Positions 29,746 through 34,044 of a stretch of 34,125 nt of DNA are shown here, piece by piece. Each line of letters begins with the position of its first letter. Positions within the stretch are counted from its first letter, which is position 1. A program made the position numbers and the translations under genes. Below the pieces are notes generated by a model. That model was given only the letters and a program-made list of their open reading frames with translations, ran no database searches and was not told the DNA's origin. The DNA is from an uncultured Saprospiraceae bacterium (GTDB lineage: Bacteria; Bacteroidota; Bacteroidia; Chitinophagales; Saprospiraceae), in contig CALJVI010000055.1 of assembly GCA_937974575.1 (NCBI GenBank), positions 1 to 34,125 on the forward strand. Direction: 5' to 3'.

Positions 29746-30783
29746 ATGCAAATCAAGACTGACATTTTTAAGCATATTAAGAATAAGAAATTTAAGCCTG
29801 TATATCTCTTACAAGGAGACGAGGACTACAATCTTGATATCATAGCGCAAGAATTTGAAGATAAGCTGCTTTCGGAAAGTGAAAAGTCGTTTAACCAAAC
29901 GATTTGGTATGGCAAAGATGCTACTGCAACACAGGTAATAGATTCGTGTATGCGTTATCCTATGATGGCACCGTATCAATTGATCATGCTGAAAGAGGCG
30001 CAGGATATGAAAGGGATAAATGACTTAGTCGGTTATTTGAAAAACCCAGTTCCATCCACTGTGTTTGTAATCATATTCAAACATGGCCGTCTGGATATGA
30101 GAAAAGCTTTGGGTAAGGCTATAAAGGAAAAGGGTGAAATATTCGAATCCAAACGCCTCTACGACAATGAGATTCCAAAGTGGATTACTGGTTTTGTGCA
30201 AGATAGAGGCTATAGTATAGCAGATAGAAACGCAATGTTGGTAGCCAATCATCTTGGTGCGGATCTATCCAAAATATCTAATGAGCTGACTAAGTTGTTT
30301 ATACTTTTACCTAAAGGAACTGAAATTGATGACAAGTTTATAGAGAAACATATAGGCATCAGCAAGCATTTTAATGTCTTTGAATTACAAGATGCTGTTG
30401 CAGGAAGAGATCTACACAAAGCCCAACAGATAGTGCATTACTTTGTAAATAATCCGAAGAAAAACCCAGCTGTAGTGGTGATTAATGGCTTGTATGGATT
30501 TTTCTCAAAGTTATATCTAGCTATTTCATACGCTAAAAAGAACGATATGGATCTTGCTCAATCACTTGGCTATTCTCCAAGAAACGAATACGCAGCGAGA
30601 TTTTTTGTGCGTAACTTTCGACAAGCATTAAAAACTTATTCTAGAATGGAGATTGAAGATTGTTTGATTACTTTATCTACATATGACCTTCGTTCTAAGG
30701 GTGTGGATAATGTAAACACAGATTCTGGTCAATTACTTAGAGAATTGATCTACAAACTAATGTCTTCAAAAGTACTTGTTTAG
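29746..30783 (+). CDS. holA: DNA polymerase III, delta subunit
   Basis: Clamp-loader subunit that opens the sliding clamp during replication. The ATG at 29746 gives 345 residues, the normal HolA length; a TTG two codons earlier is less likely. The N-terminal KKFKPVYLLQGDEDYNLD is the family's opening motif. FNQTIWYGKDATATQVIDSC, MMAPYQLIMLKEAQDM, then GADLSKISNELTKLFILLPK and HFNVFELQDAVAGRDLHKAQ (domain III) follow. The C-terminal helical collar domain ends with LLRELIYKLM. It lies upstream of the trp leader; a 20-base palindrome follows its stop. Confidence 0.93.
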   Translation: MQIKTDIFKHIKNKKFKPVYLLQGDEDYNLDIIAQEFEDKLLSESEKSFNQTIWYGKDATATQVIDSCMRYPMMAPYQLIMLKEAQDMKGINDLVGYLKNPVPSTVFVIIFKHGRLDMRKALGKAIKEKGEIFESKRLYDNEIPKWITGFVQDRGYSIADRNAMLVANHLGADLSKISNELTKLFILLPKGTEIDDKFIEKHIGISKHFNVFELQDAVAGRDLHKAQQIVHYFVNNPKKNPAVVVINGLYGFFSKLYLAISYAKKNDMDLAQSLGYSPRNEYAARFFVRNFRQALKTYSRMEIEDCLITLSTYDLRSKGVDNVNTDSGQLLRELIYKLMSSKVLV

Positions 30784-30796
30784 CTTTTTATCCTAG

Positions 30797-30816
30797 TTAG
30801 GAATATTTATTCCTAA
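30797..30816. repeat. Perfect 20-base palindrome between holA and the trp leader
   Basis: TTAGGAATA (30797-30805) and TATTCCTAA (30808-30816) around TT. It starts 13 bases after the holA stop and lies about 50 bases before the leader peptide start. No T-tract follows, so it is not a standard intrinsic terminator. It could be an operator site or an RNA hairpin at the end of the holA transcript. Confidence 0.5.
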
Positions 30817-30868
30817 TTAACCGTCATTAAACTTGCTTTCCTTTTTAAAATAGACTTAATTTGTTGAT

Positions 30869-30934
30869 ATGAATATTTCAATATTAAATATTAATACTTG
30901 TTGGTGGCACTTATCTACTCGGAATCCCGAATAG
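30869..30934 (+). CDS. trpL: Trp operon leader peptide (21 residues, tandem Trp codons)
   Basis: A 21-codon ATG ORF ending in TAG. It begins MNISILNINT and continues CWWHLSTRNPE, with two adjacent TGG codons at 30902-30907, codons 12 and 13. Trp is the rarest residue, so a pair in so short an ORF directly before trpE and its terminator is strong evidence of a stalling peptide. An in-frame stop lies at 30857, so this ATG is the only start. Its last codons form the 1:2 hairpin, so a ribosome at the Trp codons masks segment 1 and one at the stop masks segment 2. The start lacks a Shine-Dalgarno sequence, as usual here. Confidence 0.82.
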   Translation: MNISILNINTCWWHLSTRNPE

Positions 30935-30982
30935 TTAGGCTATCGTTTTTGTGTTATATGAAAAAGGCTTATCGTTATTCGG
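30915..30982 (+). promoter_or_regulatory. Trp attenuator: 1:2 hairpin and 2:3 antiterminator segments
   Basis: Segment 1 (30915-30922, CTACTCGG) pairs with segment 2 (30927-30934, CCGAATAG) with one mismatch and a four-base loop. Segment 2 can instead pair with segment 3: 30927-30935 with 30974-30982 (CCGAATA/TATTCGG plus two G-U pairs). This is extended by AGGCT (30937-30941) with GGCTT (30966-30970) and by TTTTT (30946-30950) with AAAAA (30961-30965). That fold uses up the 5' arm of the terminator. Pairings were drawn by hand; free energies were not computed. Confidence 0.72.
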
Positions 30983-30995
30983 TAAGCCTTTTTTT
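30961..30995 (+). terminator. Trp attenuator terminator (3:4 hairpin)
   Basis: Stem AAAAAGGCTTATC (30961-30973) with GGTAAGCCTTTTT (30981-30993), including one G-U pair, loop of seven bases, running into T's through 30995. It stands between the leader peptide stop (30934) and the trpE ATG (31026), so it must be bypassed for the operon to be read. This is the expected place of an attenuator, not of an end-of-gene terminator. Confidence 0.88.
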
Positions 30996-31025
30996 ATTGC
31001 ACGGTATTTGCAAAACTTATGAAAC

Positions 31026-32441
31026 ATGACTTTTTCCAAAGAAATCAATCCTAGATTGATTAAAACTTTTACCACCACCGTTATGGGTGATACCCATACC
31101 CCTGTCTCTGTATTCCTTAAGTTAAGAGACAAGCATAAGTCTATTCTTATGCTCGAAGCCAATGATTTTACGAGTAAGGAGGACTGCAAGTCATATATCG
31201 CACTAGATATTCTAGATGAATTTATCGTAAAAGATGGATTTATCCACCTGTATGAAAATGGCACTTGCACCAAAAAAGAAGCGATTAAGGCTAGAAATCA
31301 AGTAGTAGATGCATTACAAAATTTTATTTCTTCTCATAAATCTACCGAGGACCAAGTTTTTAATGGCTGCTTCGGACATACCAATTTTGAAGCTATTGAA
31401 TTTTTTGAAGACATAAAGCTAGATAACACAAAAGAAACAGTCGATATCCCTGTGATACGATACTCTACCTTCAGATATATATTGGAGTTTGATCATTTCA
31501 AGGATGTGATACGCATCATCGAAAATTGTAATTTAGGTGAAGAGTCAAACATCACTACTATTATTTCTCAGATGAATAATCCAGTGTTTGAATCATTTGA
31601 TTTTGAATTGGAAGGGGAGACTACGAGCAATATGCAAGATGATGACTTTAGAAAAATGGTAAGAGTAGGGAAGAAACATTGTCAGCTGGGTGATGTCTTT
31701 CAAATAGTGATGTCGCGAAGATTTAATCAGGGTTTTGCTGGGGATGAATTTAATGTTTATCGCGTATTGCGAAGCTTAAATCCTTCGCCCTATTTATTTT
31801 ATTTTGATTACGGAGCCTACCGTTTATTCGGGTCTTCTCCTGAATCTCAATTGGTAATTAATAATGGCTTGGCCAGTTTAAATCCTATAGCTGGAACTTT
31901 CAAGCGAGCAGGATTAAGTAAGGAGCAGGATGCAGCAAAGGCTTTGGAGTTGAGTAATGATCCCAAAGAGAATGCTGAGCATATCATGCTGGTAGATTTG
32001 GCAAGAAATGATTTGAGTAGGCATTGTAAAGACGTTAGAATTAAGAATTTAAAAGACATACATTTCTTTTCCCATGTTATACATTTGGTATCAAGAGTAG
32101 AAGGGGATATGGTGAATAAACATGAACCCATCCAAATATTCGGTGATACTTTTCCTGCTGGGACTCTCTCGGGTGCACCAAAGCATCGTGCAATGCAGAT
32201 CATTGACGAAGTAGAACCGACGGGACGCTCCTTTTATGGAGGCGCCATTGGGTATATTGATTTCAAAGGGAATATGAACCAAGCCATACTTATCAGATCA
32301 TTTTTGAGTAAAGACAATTGTTTGCATTTTCAAGCTGGAGCGGGCATTGTAATCGACAGTGATGAAGAGAAAGAGTTACAAGAAATTAATAATAAATTGG
32401 ACGCTTTACATGCTGCCATCAAAAAAGCAACTACAATATGA
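31026..32441 (+). CDS. trpE: Anthranilate synthase component I
   Basis: Converts chorismate to anthranilate with ammonia from TrpG; first committed step of tryptophan synthesis. The 471 residues show the N-terminal regulatory region (HTPVSVFLKLRDK, ILMLEANDF 40-48) and the chorismate-binding domain: NPSPYLFYFDYGAYRLFGSS, then PESQL; NPIAGTFKRAG; HIMLVDLARNDLSRHC; FPAGTLSGAPKHRAMQIIDE and GRSFYGGAIGYIDFKGNMNQ. In the Trp-binding 'LLES' position the sequence reads LMLEAND, with Ala45 where Ser is usual. The ATG at 31026 is used; an ATG at 31019 is out of frame and soon stops. ATGA overlap with trpG. Confidence 0.95.
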   Translation: MTFSKEINPRLIKTFTTTVMGDTHTPVSVFLKLRDKHKSILMLEANDFTSKEDCKSYIALDILDEFIVKDGFIHLYENGTCTKKEAIKARNQVVDALQNFISSHKSTEDQVFNGCFGHTNFEAIEFFEDIKLDNTKETVDIPVIRYSTFRYILEFDHFKDVIRIIENCNLGEESNITTIISQMNNPVFESFDFELEGETTSNMQDDDFRKMVRVGKKHCQLGDVFQIVMSRRFNQGFAGDEFNVYRVLRSLNPSPYLFYFDYGAYRLFGSSPESQLVINNGLASLNPIAGTFKRAGLSKEQDAAKALELSNDPKENAEHIMLVDLARNDLSRHCKDVRIKNLKDIHFFSHVIHLVSRVEGDMVNKHEPIQIFGDTFPAGTLSGAPKHRAMQIIDEVEPTGRSFYGGAIGYIDFKGNMNQAILIRSFLSKDNCLHFQAGAGIVIDSDEEKELQEINNKLDALHAAIKKATTI

Positions 32442-33058
32442 ACAAGATACTATTGCTTGATAATTACGACTCCTTTACTTACAACCTAGTGCAATATCTG
32501 GAAGAATTATGTGGTAGTAAAATCACGGTCAAGCGGAATGATAAAATAACTTTGGAGGAAGTAGACAATTATGATACTATCGTATTGTCTCCTGGCCCTG
32601 GTCTACCTCATGAGGCAGGATTGATGCCTGCTATACTAGAAGAATATAAAAACTCAAAAAGAATTCTTGGTGTTTGTCTTGGCCATCAAGCTATCATTGA
32701 ATCCTTTGGTGGCCGTATTAAAAATTTGACAAAAGTATATCATGGTGTAGCCACTTCGATTTTCAAAACTGAAAATAAGGGTGTTCTTTTTGAAGGAATT
32801 GAAGATGAATTTATGGCAGGGCGTTATCATTCGTGGAGTGGAGTGGTGGATGAAATGCCTGCCGATCTATTGATTACGGGACTGGATGTACAAGGAGAGA
32901 TTATGGCAATTCAGCATAGAACATTACCAATATATGGAGTACAATTTCATCCTGAGTCTATTATGACAGCGGTAGGAAAAAAAATGTTAGCCAATTTTCT
33001 AGAAATTCCTTATGTGATTTCGCAAAAGGACTATGCACTTGAAAACGCCAGTAACTAA
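32438..33058 (+). CDS. trpG: Anthranilate synthase component II (glutamine amidotransferase)
   Basis: Class-I glutamine amidotransferase that feeds ammonia to TrpE. The 206 residues carry DNYDSFTYNLVQYLEE (8-23), the oxyanion SPGPGLP (51-57), the nucleophile Cys80 in GVCLGHQAI (78-86), and the His171/Glu173 pair in GVQFHPESIMT (167-177). The ATG overlaps the trpE stop as ATGA, implying translational coupling and a balanced TrpE:TrpG ratio. RYHSW (129-133) is the family's conserved loop. Its TAA shares one base with the ATG of trpD. A role shared with p-aminobenzoate synthesis, seen in some bacteria, is possible, but the operon context favours tryptophan. Confidence 0.96.
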   Translation: MNKILLLDNYDSFTYNLVQYLEELCGSKITVKRNDKITLEEVDNYDTIVLSPGPGLPHEAGLMPAILEEYKNSKRILGVCLGHQAIIESFGGRIKNLTKVYHGVATSIFKTENKGVLFEGIEDEFMAGRYHSWSGVVDEMPADLLITGLDVQGEIMAIQHRTLPIYGVQFHPESIMTAVGKKMLANFLEIPYVISQKDYALENASN

Positions 33059-34044
33059 TGAAAGATTTACTTAATTATATGTATAGTCACGGTAAGCTTA
33101 GTTATGCTCAGGCAAAAGAGGTGTTGCTAGAAATTACCGAGGAGAAATATGACCCAATGCAAGTGTCGTCATTTTTAACTGTTTTTAATATGCGACCTAT
33201 AATTGCGGAAGAATTAGATGGCTTCAGAGCAGCCCTAATGGAAAAGTGCATAAGGGTAAATTTAGAAAATGTCGATTGTCTAGACATAGTAGGTACCGGG
33301 GGAGACAGCAAAGATACTTTTAATATATCAACCCTCTCAGCAGTTGTAATGGCTGGGGCTGGAGTAAAAGTAGCGAAGCATGGTAATAATTCCGTTTCTT
33401 CCAAATGTGGATCCAGTAATGTGCTAAAGTATTTGGGATACACATTTTCAAAAGATGAAGATGACATTAAAAGACATATTGATAAGCATAATCTTTGCTT
33501 TTTTCATGCCCCATATTTTCATCCTGTAATGAAGTCTGTGGTTCCTATTAGAAAGGCGTTAAAAGTAAAAACATTCTTTAATATGCTTGGACCTCTAGTG
33601 AATCCAGCACAGCCAACTTATAGTTTCTTAGGGGTATACAATAGCTCCATTGGTAGACTGTATCAAACTATACTCAAAAAGCAAAATAGAAAATTTGCAG
33701 TTGTCTATAATCTTGATGGTTATGATGAAATCAGTTTGACGGATCATTTTAGTATTCGTACACAAACAACCACGACTACCATAGGCCCAGAAGACTTACT
33801 ACTGCCTAAATACAAGGCTTCTGATTTATGGGGTGGGGATAGTATCGCAGATAGTGCTAAGATATTTATGAATGTACTGAATAATACCTCTACGACTGCT
33901 CAAAAAGATGTCGTACTGGCTAATGCCGGATTTGGAATACAGATGTATAAAGGAAACATAAATTTGCAAGAAGCTATTGATATCGCTAGAGAATCCATTG
34001 AAAGCGGAAGTGCATTGACTAATTTTAAAAACCTAGTAAACTGA
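33058..34044 (+). CDS. trpD: Anthranilate phosphoribosyltransferase
   Basis: Joins anthranilate to PRPP, the second step after chorismate. 328 residues. The PRPP-binding GTGGDSKDTFNIST lies at 79-92, followed by KHGNNSVSSKCGSSNVL (107-123), the anthranilate/PRPP loop. FNMLGPLVNPA is also diagnostic. Stop-start overlap of one base with trpG (TAATG) suggests coupled translation. A two-base gap precedes the trpC ATG. The chain is slightly shorter than the E. coli enzyme domain and is not fused to trpG as it is there. Confidence 0.96.
   Translation: MKDLLNYMYSHGKLSYAQAKEVLLEITEEKYDPMQVSSFLTVFNMRPIIAEELDGFRAALMEKCIRVNLENVDCLDIVGTGGDSKDTFNISTLSAVVMAGAGVKVAKHGNNSVSSKCGSSNVLKYLGYTFSKDEDDIKRHIDKHNLCFFHAPYFHPVMKSVVPIRKALKVKTFFNMLGPLVNPAQPTYSFLGVYNSSIGRLYQTILKKQNRKFAVVYNLDGYDEISLTDHFSIRTQTTTTTIGPEDLLLPKYKASDLWGGDSIADSAKIFMNVLNNTSTTAQKDVVLANAGFGIQMYKGNINLQEAIDIARESIESGSALTNFKNLVN

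Follow-up and report, generated by a model that had tools for sequence, protein, structure and literature searches.

The trp leader of Escherichia coli combines tandem Trp codons and mutually exclusive 1:2, 2:3 and 3:4 pairings with a terminator situated before trpE. Computational surveys of attenuation by the Lyubetsky/Seliverstov group reportedly may include trp operons of Bacteroidetes. Within this phylum, the accessible text of several studies describes related elements: the Rfam family RF01692, Bacteroid-trp (Bacteroidete tryptophan peptide leader RNA), goes back to Weinberg et al. 2010 (PMC2864571), a 2019 paper places Bacteroid-trp ahead of the trp operon of Flavobacterium psychrophilum (PMC6414381), and a transcriptome of that species is said to give 'strong clues' of leader-peptide attenuation at amino-acid biosynthesis operons (PMC9723704). 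Given RF01692 and these reports from F. psychrophilum, the attenuator class is already known in Bacteroidota and the phylum context is not new. A direct search for literature on leader-peptide attenuation in Saprospiraceae or Bacteroidota recovered no paper, and the available portion of PMC8305728 contains nothing on Bacteroidota attenuators; leader genes in general are treated, as far as its accessible part goes, in PMC4833913. Outside the phylum, the available text on trpL (rnTrpL) of Sinorhizobium meliloti describes an attenuator RNA that starts with the leader ATG and thus has a leaderless leader peptide (PMC7298713).

Here we analyze the region upstream of trpE in a contig of an uncultured Saprospiraceae bacterium; the window is the whole stretch of 34,125 nucleotides that was analyzed. 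On the combined grounds of sequence, folding and comparison, we conclude with high confidence that a ribosome-dependent transcription attenuator controls trpEGD at this locus. The aspects most worth following are its extension of the class beyond the current Rfam model and a predicted leaderless start of the leader peptide.

Architecture of the trpE upstream region

The attenuator is placed between a gene for a DNA polymerase III delta subunit-like protein, which ends at 30783, and trpE, which is followed by trpG and trpD:

31026-32441, forward strand: trpE, anthranilate synthase component I (Pfam PF00425, PF04715)
32438-33058, forward strand: trpG, glutamine amidotransferase (Pfam PF00117), overlapping trpE by 4 nt
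33058-34044, forward strand: trpD, anthranilate phosphoribosyltransferase (Pfam PF00591, PF02885)

A family search of the same genome (G000, ~90% complete) did not find the HisG and IlvD families; their absence beside trpEGD points to possible amino-acid auxotrophies or to missing contigs. The parts of the attenuator are as follows:

30869-30934, forward strand: leader peptide ORF MNISILNINTCWWHLSTRNPE*, 21 codons plus TAG, with a predicted transcription start at the ATG or within 1 nt of it
30902-30907, forward strand: tandem Trp (sensor) codons TGG TGG, from sequence and folding
30892-30956, forward strand: protector (segment 1:2), pairing 30892-30897/30951-30956, 30902-30908/30939-30945 and 30910-30911/30937-30938, with a tip hairpin at 30915-30934
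30927-30941, forward strand: segment 2, the 5' strand of the antiterminator, holding the leader stop codon at 30932-30934
30966-30982, forward strand: segment 3, the 3' strand of the antiterminator, overlapping the 5' arm, the loop and the first 3'-arm bases of the terminator
30960-30996, forward strand: intrinsic terminator, a 15-bp stem (30960-30974/30980-30994) followed by the end of a T-run, from folding and covariation

A short ORF with consecutive Trp codons hence stands upstream of the trp operon, with a single possible start among ATG, GTG and TTG and no other in-frame start, and by both sequence and folding an intrinsic terminator is located between this ORF and the first structural gene. 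The pattern ATG-N6-30-TGGTGG by itself is useless as a signature, with 769 matches in the same genome as against 520 for the reversed pattern. In the protector the Trp codons (30902-30908) are themselves paired, with 30939-30945, while the alternative 2:3 pairing joins 30927-30934 with 30975-30982 and 30936-30941 with 30966-30971. A generic scan reported no terminator in this region, probably because the stem takes in some of the T run.

These elements largely recapitulate a preliminary description made from the sequence, which had proposed a 21-codon ORF with tandem TGG codons at 30902-30907, a terminator at 30961-30995 and a competing 2:3 pairing of 30927-30950 with 30961-30982: the ORF holds as proposed, the terminator is recovered as a 15-bp stem (30960-30974/30980-30994) running into T residues, and the 2:3 pairing falls within the proposed spans. 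Its 1:2 hairpin at 30915-30934 survived in part, being present in the minimum-energy fold (30915-30917/30932-30934 and 30919-30922/30927-30930) only as the tip of the longer protector. This tip hairpin displays no covariation among the relatives, and was accordingly dropped as a conserved 1:2 element.

Distribution of the leader across Bacteroidota

Loci were collected from 60 related genomes, 59 of which yielded matches and from which the best 30 were fetched (full-length trpE matches in G023, G009, G055 and G053 lie outside this set), and from a single scan of named genomes, from which the best 80 of 594 stretches were taken. This gave 110 trpE loci, reduced to 109 by dropping L032, with its 26 nt of upstream sequence. 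The three best hits among the named genomes belong to Saprospiraceae. Among these best 30 and best 80 of 594 matches, a leader ORF with a run of Trp codons and a terminator precede trpE at 96/109 Bacteroidota loci, as against 0/1090 dinucleotide shuffles; L028 and L051 are a duplicate pair, both positive, leaving 95 distinct positives. The leader detection rule itself demands a Trp run, which all 95 leaders accordingly hold; among these matches 70 of the 95 have WWW, and the window has two Trp codons. In several species a single intervening codon separates Trp codons (WHW, WLW, WRWW, WSWRW), and this whole-codon spacing argues for in-frame reading of the leader.

The 13 misses fall into distinct situations. 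L021 and L058 possess a WWW leader with no called terminator, and L005, L071 and L096 have no complete leader plus terminator (L005 offers only 158 nt of upstream sequence, and L096 only a terminator). At the remaining eight (L045, L069, L101, L102, L104, L105, L106 and L110) a terminator is found in front of the gene that precedes trpE, a frame of ~400 codons, and a Trp-run ORF was recognized before that gene in L045, L102, L104 and L110. The ~400-codon gene is a PALP (trpB-like) gene in both loci checked, L106 and L104, and in the former, from Bacteroides fragilis, Rfam finds Bacteroid-trp ahead of it. The terminator in these eight loci, L104 and L106 included, is found ~1.2-1.4 kb before trpE. 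Its position ahead of the preceding gene suggests that the element stays at the front of the operon.

These observations bear on the reading of the hairpin as a mere terminator of the DNA polymerase III delta gene that ends at 30783, with the short ORF being fortuitous. The hairpin does indeed lie between that gene and trpE; however, predicted promoter elements (see below) and the Trp-rich ORF intervene between the upstream gene and the hairpin, the layout recurs at 96/109 of the trpE loci among the matches listed, the 2:3 pairing covaries, and in the eight loci above the terminator is instead ahead of the gene preceding trpE (PALP in the two checked). We therefore regard a role as terminator of the upstream gene as most improbable.

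Several further observations emerged from the same survey. L068, L078 and L082 have probable tandem attenuators, reaching up to ~390 nt before trpE, in which a leader with IWLPWWG or IWLWWG and its terminator come first, followed by a WWW or WSWRW leader before trpE. Upstream of ilvD, an Ile/Val-rich leader-like ORF followed by a terminator is present in 4/8 loci (L120, L122, L123 and L125), e.g. MNYVINIIPSSIIIVIRT in L122 and MNNKQLSVILSIIISVVNIY in L125; these are likely attenuators of branched-chain genes in members of the same family and order. In many relatives the core shared by terminator and antiterminator, segment 3 (GGCTTGTCG...CGGCAAGCC), retains its primary sequence across distant genera, and such conservation, seemingly beyond the needs of pairing, may reflect the double constraint of the 2:3 and 3:4 pairings.

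Simulated ribosome stalling

The region 30869-31030 folds with a z of -4.42, and 0/200 shuffles are equally stable. The nascent RNA of the window was folded to 30982, i.e. before most of the 3' arm of the terminator, with the highest antiterminator pair probability as readout. This probability is 0.99 with the ribosome at either the first or the second Trp codon, 0.02 without a ribosome and 0.01 when it occupies the stop codon. As predicted in the preliminary description, a simulated stall at the Trp codons flips the fold. In the full-length RNA of the window the terminator wins in all four ribosome settings, implying that the decision must fall during transcription.

Comparable behavior is seen in the 95 distinct loci among the matches listed, where the antiterminator probability exceeds 0.5 in 88 with a stalled ribosome, 40 with none and 35 with one on the stop codon, the figures for the closest set among these matches (n=30) being 29, 9 and 8, respectively. 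The median expected number of antiterminator pairs over the 95 loci is 12.8 stalled, 2.1 without ribosome and 0.7 at the stop; L018, which gives zero antiterminator in all three states, probably owing to a misplaced loop boundary, was kept in these counts. Stalling exceeds the stop position by >3 expected pairs in 86/95 of these matches, and the state without ribosome by the same measure in 61/95 (not so in 34/95), indicating that the untranslated default is less uniform. When segment 2 was shuffled, the 16.4 expected stalled antiterminator pairs of the window were reached in 3/200 cases, and among the matches listed 88/95 loci lie above their own shuffle mean and 49/95 above all ten of their shuffles. 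Computationally, therefore, the region contains an antiterminator that excludes the terminator and is favored by a stall at the Trp codons.

Switches that directly bind tryptophan, tRNA or a protein (riboswitch, T-box or TRAP-like) likewise use terminators and antiterminators upstream of trp genes, as is generally known, and could in principle produce such an arrangement in place of a translating ribosome. As against this, none of the Rfam families scores at or above its cut-off in the window, a T-box is absent from the low-threshold matches to the leader region, and in-frame Trp codons recur beside the switch; direct binding is accordingly judged very unlikely.

Covariation and swap tests

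Alignment A2 comprises 29 of 30 relatives; L027 was omitted by choice, because of the long distance between its terminator and the start of the match, and L005 and L021 are absent because no leader plus terminator was called in them. Across these 29 relatives, 13/15 terminator pairs show two-sided changes and 91.7% of the cells are paired, values matched by 0/500 shuffles. The antiterminator pairing was written down from the window alone, and it too displays a covariation score (0.308 versus 0.239 in shuffles), a number of two-sided cells (29 versus 12.5) and a paired percentage (72.5% versus 68.0%) that are each reached by 0/500 shuffles, and in all three of these measures it surpasses every slid version of itself. 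The number of antiterminator pairs with a two-sided change, 6/13, is not above shuffles (260/500 reach it) and falls below the 8-10 seen in slid versions, and the variety of pair types over the 29 relatives is not above chance; much of the second helix is not conserved by column, and several pairs, most of them in this helix, fail in 9-18 of the 29 rows. The preliminary description had also called for conserved Trp runs and compensatory changes in related genomes: the layout is kept at 96/109 loci among the matches listed, and both terminator and antiterminator covary.

An alignment-free test, in which strands were swapped between species, agrees with the predicted 2:3 and leader:linker pairings. 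Own 2:3 duplexes have a mean of -15.5 kcal/mol compared with -11.5 for swapped ones, the lowest of 20000 permutation means being -12.58, and the leader:linker stem has -7.6 as against -5.9 when swapped, beyond all 20000 permutations. Taken by itself, the window has a 2:3 duplex surpassed by 5/94 swaps and an unremarkable leader:linker stem, with 46/94 swaps doing better. Sequence, folding and comparison together establish the parts of the element, their conservation, their mutual exclusivity and their order.

Predicted promoter and initiation of the leader peptide

Two putative promoter elements precede the leader ORF:

30833-30835, forward strand: predicted -33 element, the TTG in ACTTG, with a 20-nt spacer to the -7 box
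30856-30863, forward strand: predicted sigma-A -7 box TTAATTTG, matching 5/6 key positions of TAHHTTTG and ending 5 nt before the ATG

In the accessible text of published maps, 4-5 nt separate the -7 box TAHHTTTG of F. johnsoniae from the start site (PMC6847099), and start sites of B. thetaiotaomicron show a purine preference (PMC7366714). The spacing predicts a start at 30868 or, if the purine preference applies, on the A of the ATG at 30869. L002, a 75%-identical relative, keeps both the -33/-7 and the -7/ATG spacings, and by eye the 20-nt spacer between TTG and box is seen in the sequences of L002 and L003. A generic sigma-70 scan, which is not informative for this phylum, gave one sigma-70-like site versus a shuffle mean of 2.1. 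No Shine-Dalgarno site was seen by eye before the leader ATG in the sequence of the window. From the promoter elements, the leader peptide of the window is predicted to be leaderless, with the 5' end of the RNA at or near its ATG.

Within 60 nt upstream of the ATG in the 95 leaders among the matches listed, perfect -7 boxes number 58 on the sense strand and 1 on the other, and 39 occurrences of TTG at 18-21-nt spacers are found in the 54 leaders whose box is perfect, a set from which the window is absent on account of its imperfect box. With the gap measured from the ATG nearest the Trp run to the box nearest that ATG, 21/54 of these leaders (17/45 by lineage) have gaps of 4-10 nt, corresponding to a predicted 5' UTR of ~0-6 nt, and gaps of 11-40 nt are commoner (31/54). 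A control of 81 ordinary genes contained 9 perfect boxes, 2 of them at gaps <=10 nt, too few to judge. For the phylum at large, the accessible parts of the published maps give 3.7% of 5' UTRs <10 nt in B. thetaiotaomicron (PMC7366714), 5.5% leaderless in F. psychrophilum (PMC9723704) and 13% of leaders not over 10 nt in F. johnsoniae (PMC6847099).

Alternatively, the attenuator might operate as described from a transcription start further upstream, with an ordinary 5' UTR of ~10-30 nt. Consistent with this, a second 5-of-6 box, TAAACTTG, occurs 33 nt before the ATG of the window, L003 and L004 of the same genus have 5-of-6 boxes with gaps of 17-18 nt, and the 11-40-nt gaps prevail among the perfect-box leaders. 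Given the second box and the gaps in L003 and L004, the leaderless start stays a prediction. However, TAAACTTG overlaps the ACTTG which, in L001, L002 and L003, is separated from the -7 box by 20 nt, L003 has no second box match at the position of TAAACTTG, and the ORF of the window has no other in-frame start. On balance, an upstream start is a serious but less probable option, to which we would give roughly one chance in three. As for the wider claim that the Trp attenuators of many Bacteroidota, the window included, are leaderless or nearly so, with the leader AUG forming the 5' end of the transcript, we consider the chances to be about even.

A model for attenuation of trpEGD

The following course of events, from the start of transcription through translation and in vivo termination to the response to Trp, is inferred. 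With no Shine-Dalgarno site to guide it, a ribosome would begin at the leader ATG, which probably coincides with the 5' end of the transcript or lies very close to it. When little Trp-tRNA is available, it would stall at the two Trp codons and open the protector, and the segment 2 thereby freed would pair with segment 3, blocking the terminator and allowing transcription of trpE. With enough Trp, the ribosome would reach the stop codon inside segment 2 and cover that segment, so that the terminator forms, and when no ribosome is present the protector would hold segment 2, with the same outcome.

The proposal of a classical leader-peptide attenuator ahead of trpE is therefore well supported: Trp runs, terminator and antiterminator recur, the latter two covary, and stalling flips the fold. 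It had further been suggested that the same logic operates without Shine-Dalgarno initiation; here attenuation stands as the best reading, and the suggestion is sharpened to the leaderless start predicted from sequence. If the attenuator works as inferred, the ribosome and RNA polymerase would have to be coupled on these leaders, and this in a phylum where initiation does not depend on Shine-Dalgarno sites. If the leader is indeed leaderless, the sensing ribosome would load on a terminal AUG once this leaves RNA polymerase, and such coupling would arise in a phylum where, in the accessible parts of the published maps, ~4-13% of mRNAs have such short 5' ends.

Relationship to known leader RNAs

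In a low-threshold scan the window gives a full-length match to RF01692 of 31.6 bits, below the cut-off of 49, and this is the best match in its own genome; a second, weaker match (L112, G000:C162:1656-1732, 22.9 bits) is present in the same genome. At E<=10, 7/14 unrelated control genomes also match, 1 of them over the cut-off, such that the 31.6-bit score alone proves little. The model passes 16/17 loci from Flavobacteriia, Bacteroides fragilis and one unclassified genome, 0/31 of the closest loci among the matches listed (seven give weaker matches at E<=10) and 0/20 other loci, which we take from their genus names to be of Cytophagales, Chitinophagales and Sphingobacteriales, with two Prolixibacteraceae and one unclassified. 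Like RF01692, the window lies upstream of a trp operon in Bacteroidota and has a Trp leader ORF, a pairing between the early part of the leader ORF and the linker, and a segment 3 of the AAAAAGGCUUGUC or GGCUUGUC type, which reads GGCUUAUC in the window. The RF01692 model differs in that its consensus ends in the 5' arm of the terminator, and it consequently lacks both the terminator and the antiterminator pairing. On our reading the window carries a divergent relative of Bacteroid-trp with the same mode of action, rather than a formal member of RF01692. This widens a known class of regulatory RNA to Saprospiraceae and to the sampled Cytophagales, Chitinophagales and Sphingobacteriales, lineages in which the model passed 0/51 of the scanned loci among the matches listed, and supplies a mechanistic model with the terminator and antiterminator pairing that are absent from the Rfam model.

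The amino-acid leaders of F. psychrophilum, in the available text, share the phylum with the window but belong to Flavobacteriia. With the E. coli trp leader (RF00513) the window shares tandem Trp codons, exclusive 1:2, 2:3 and 3:4 pairings and a terminator upstream of trpE. The RF00513 model finds no match up to E 10 in 30700-31100 of the window, and a weak one in the relative L008 (23.3 bits, cut-off 41). Unlike the E. coli leader, the window has no Shine-Dalgarno site by eye, its stop codon lies in segment 2 and its Trp codons are paired in the protector. In its predicted leaderless start, the window resembles trpL of S. meliloti, which is alphaproteobacterial and for which, in the accessible text, the 5' end is reported, whereas here it is predicted.
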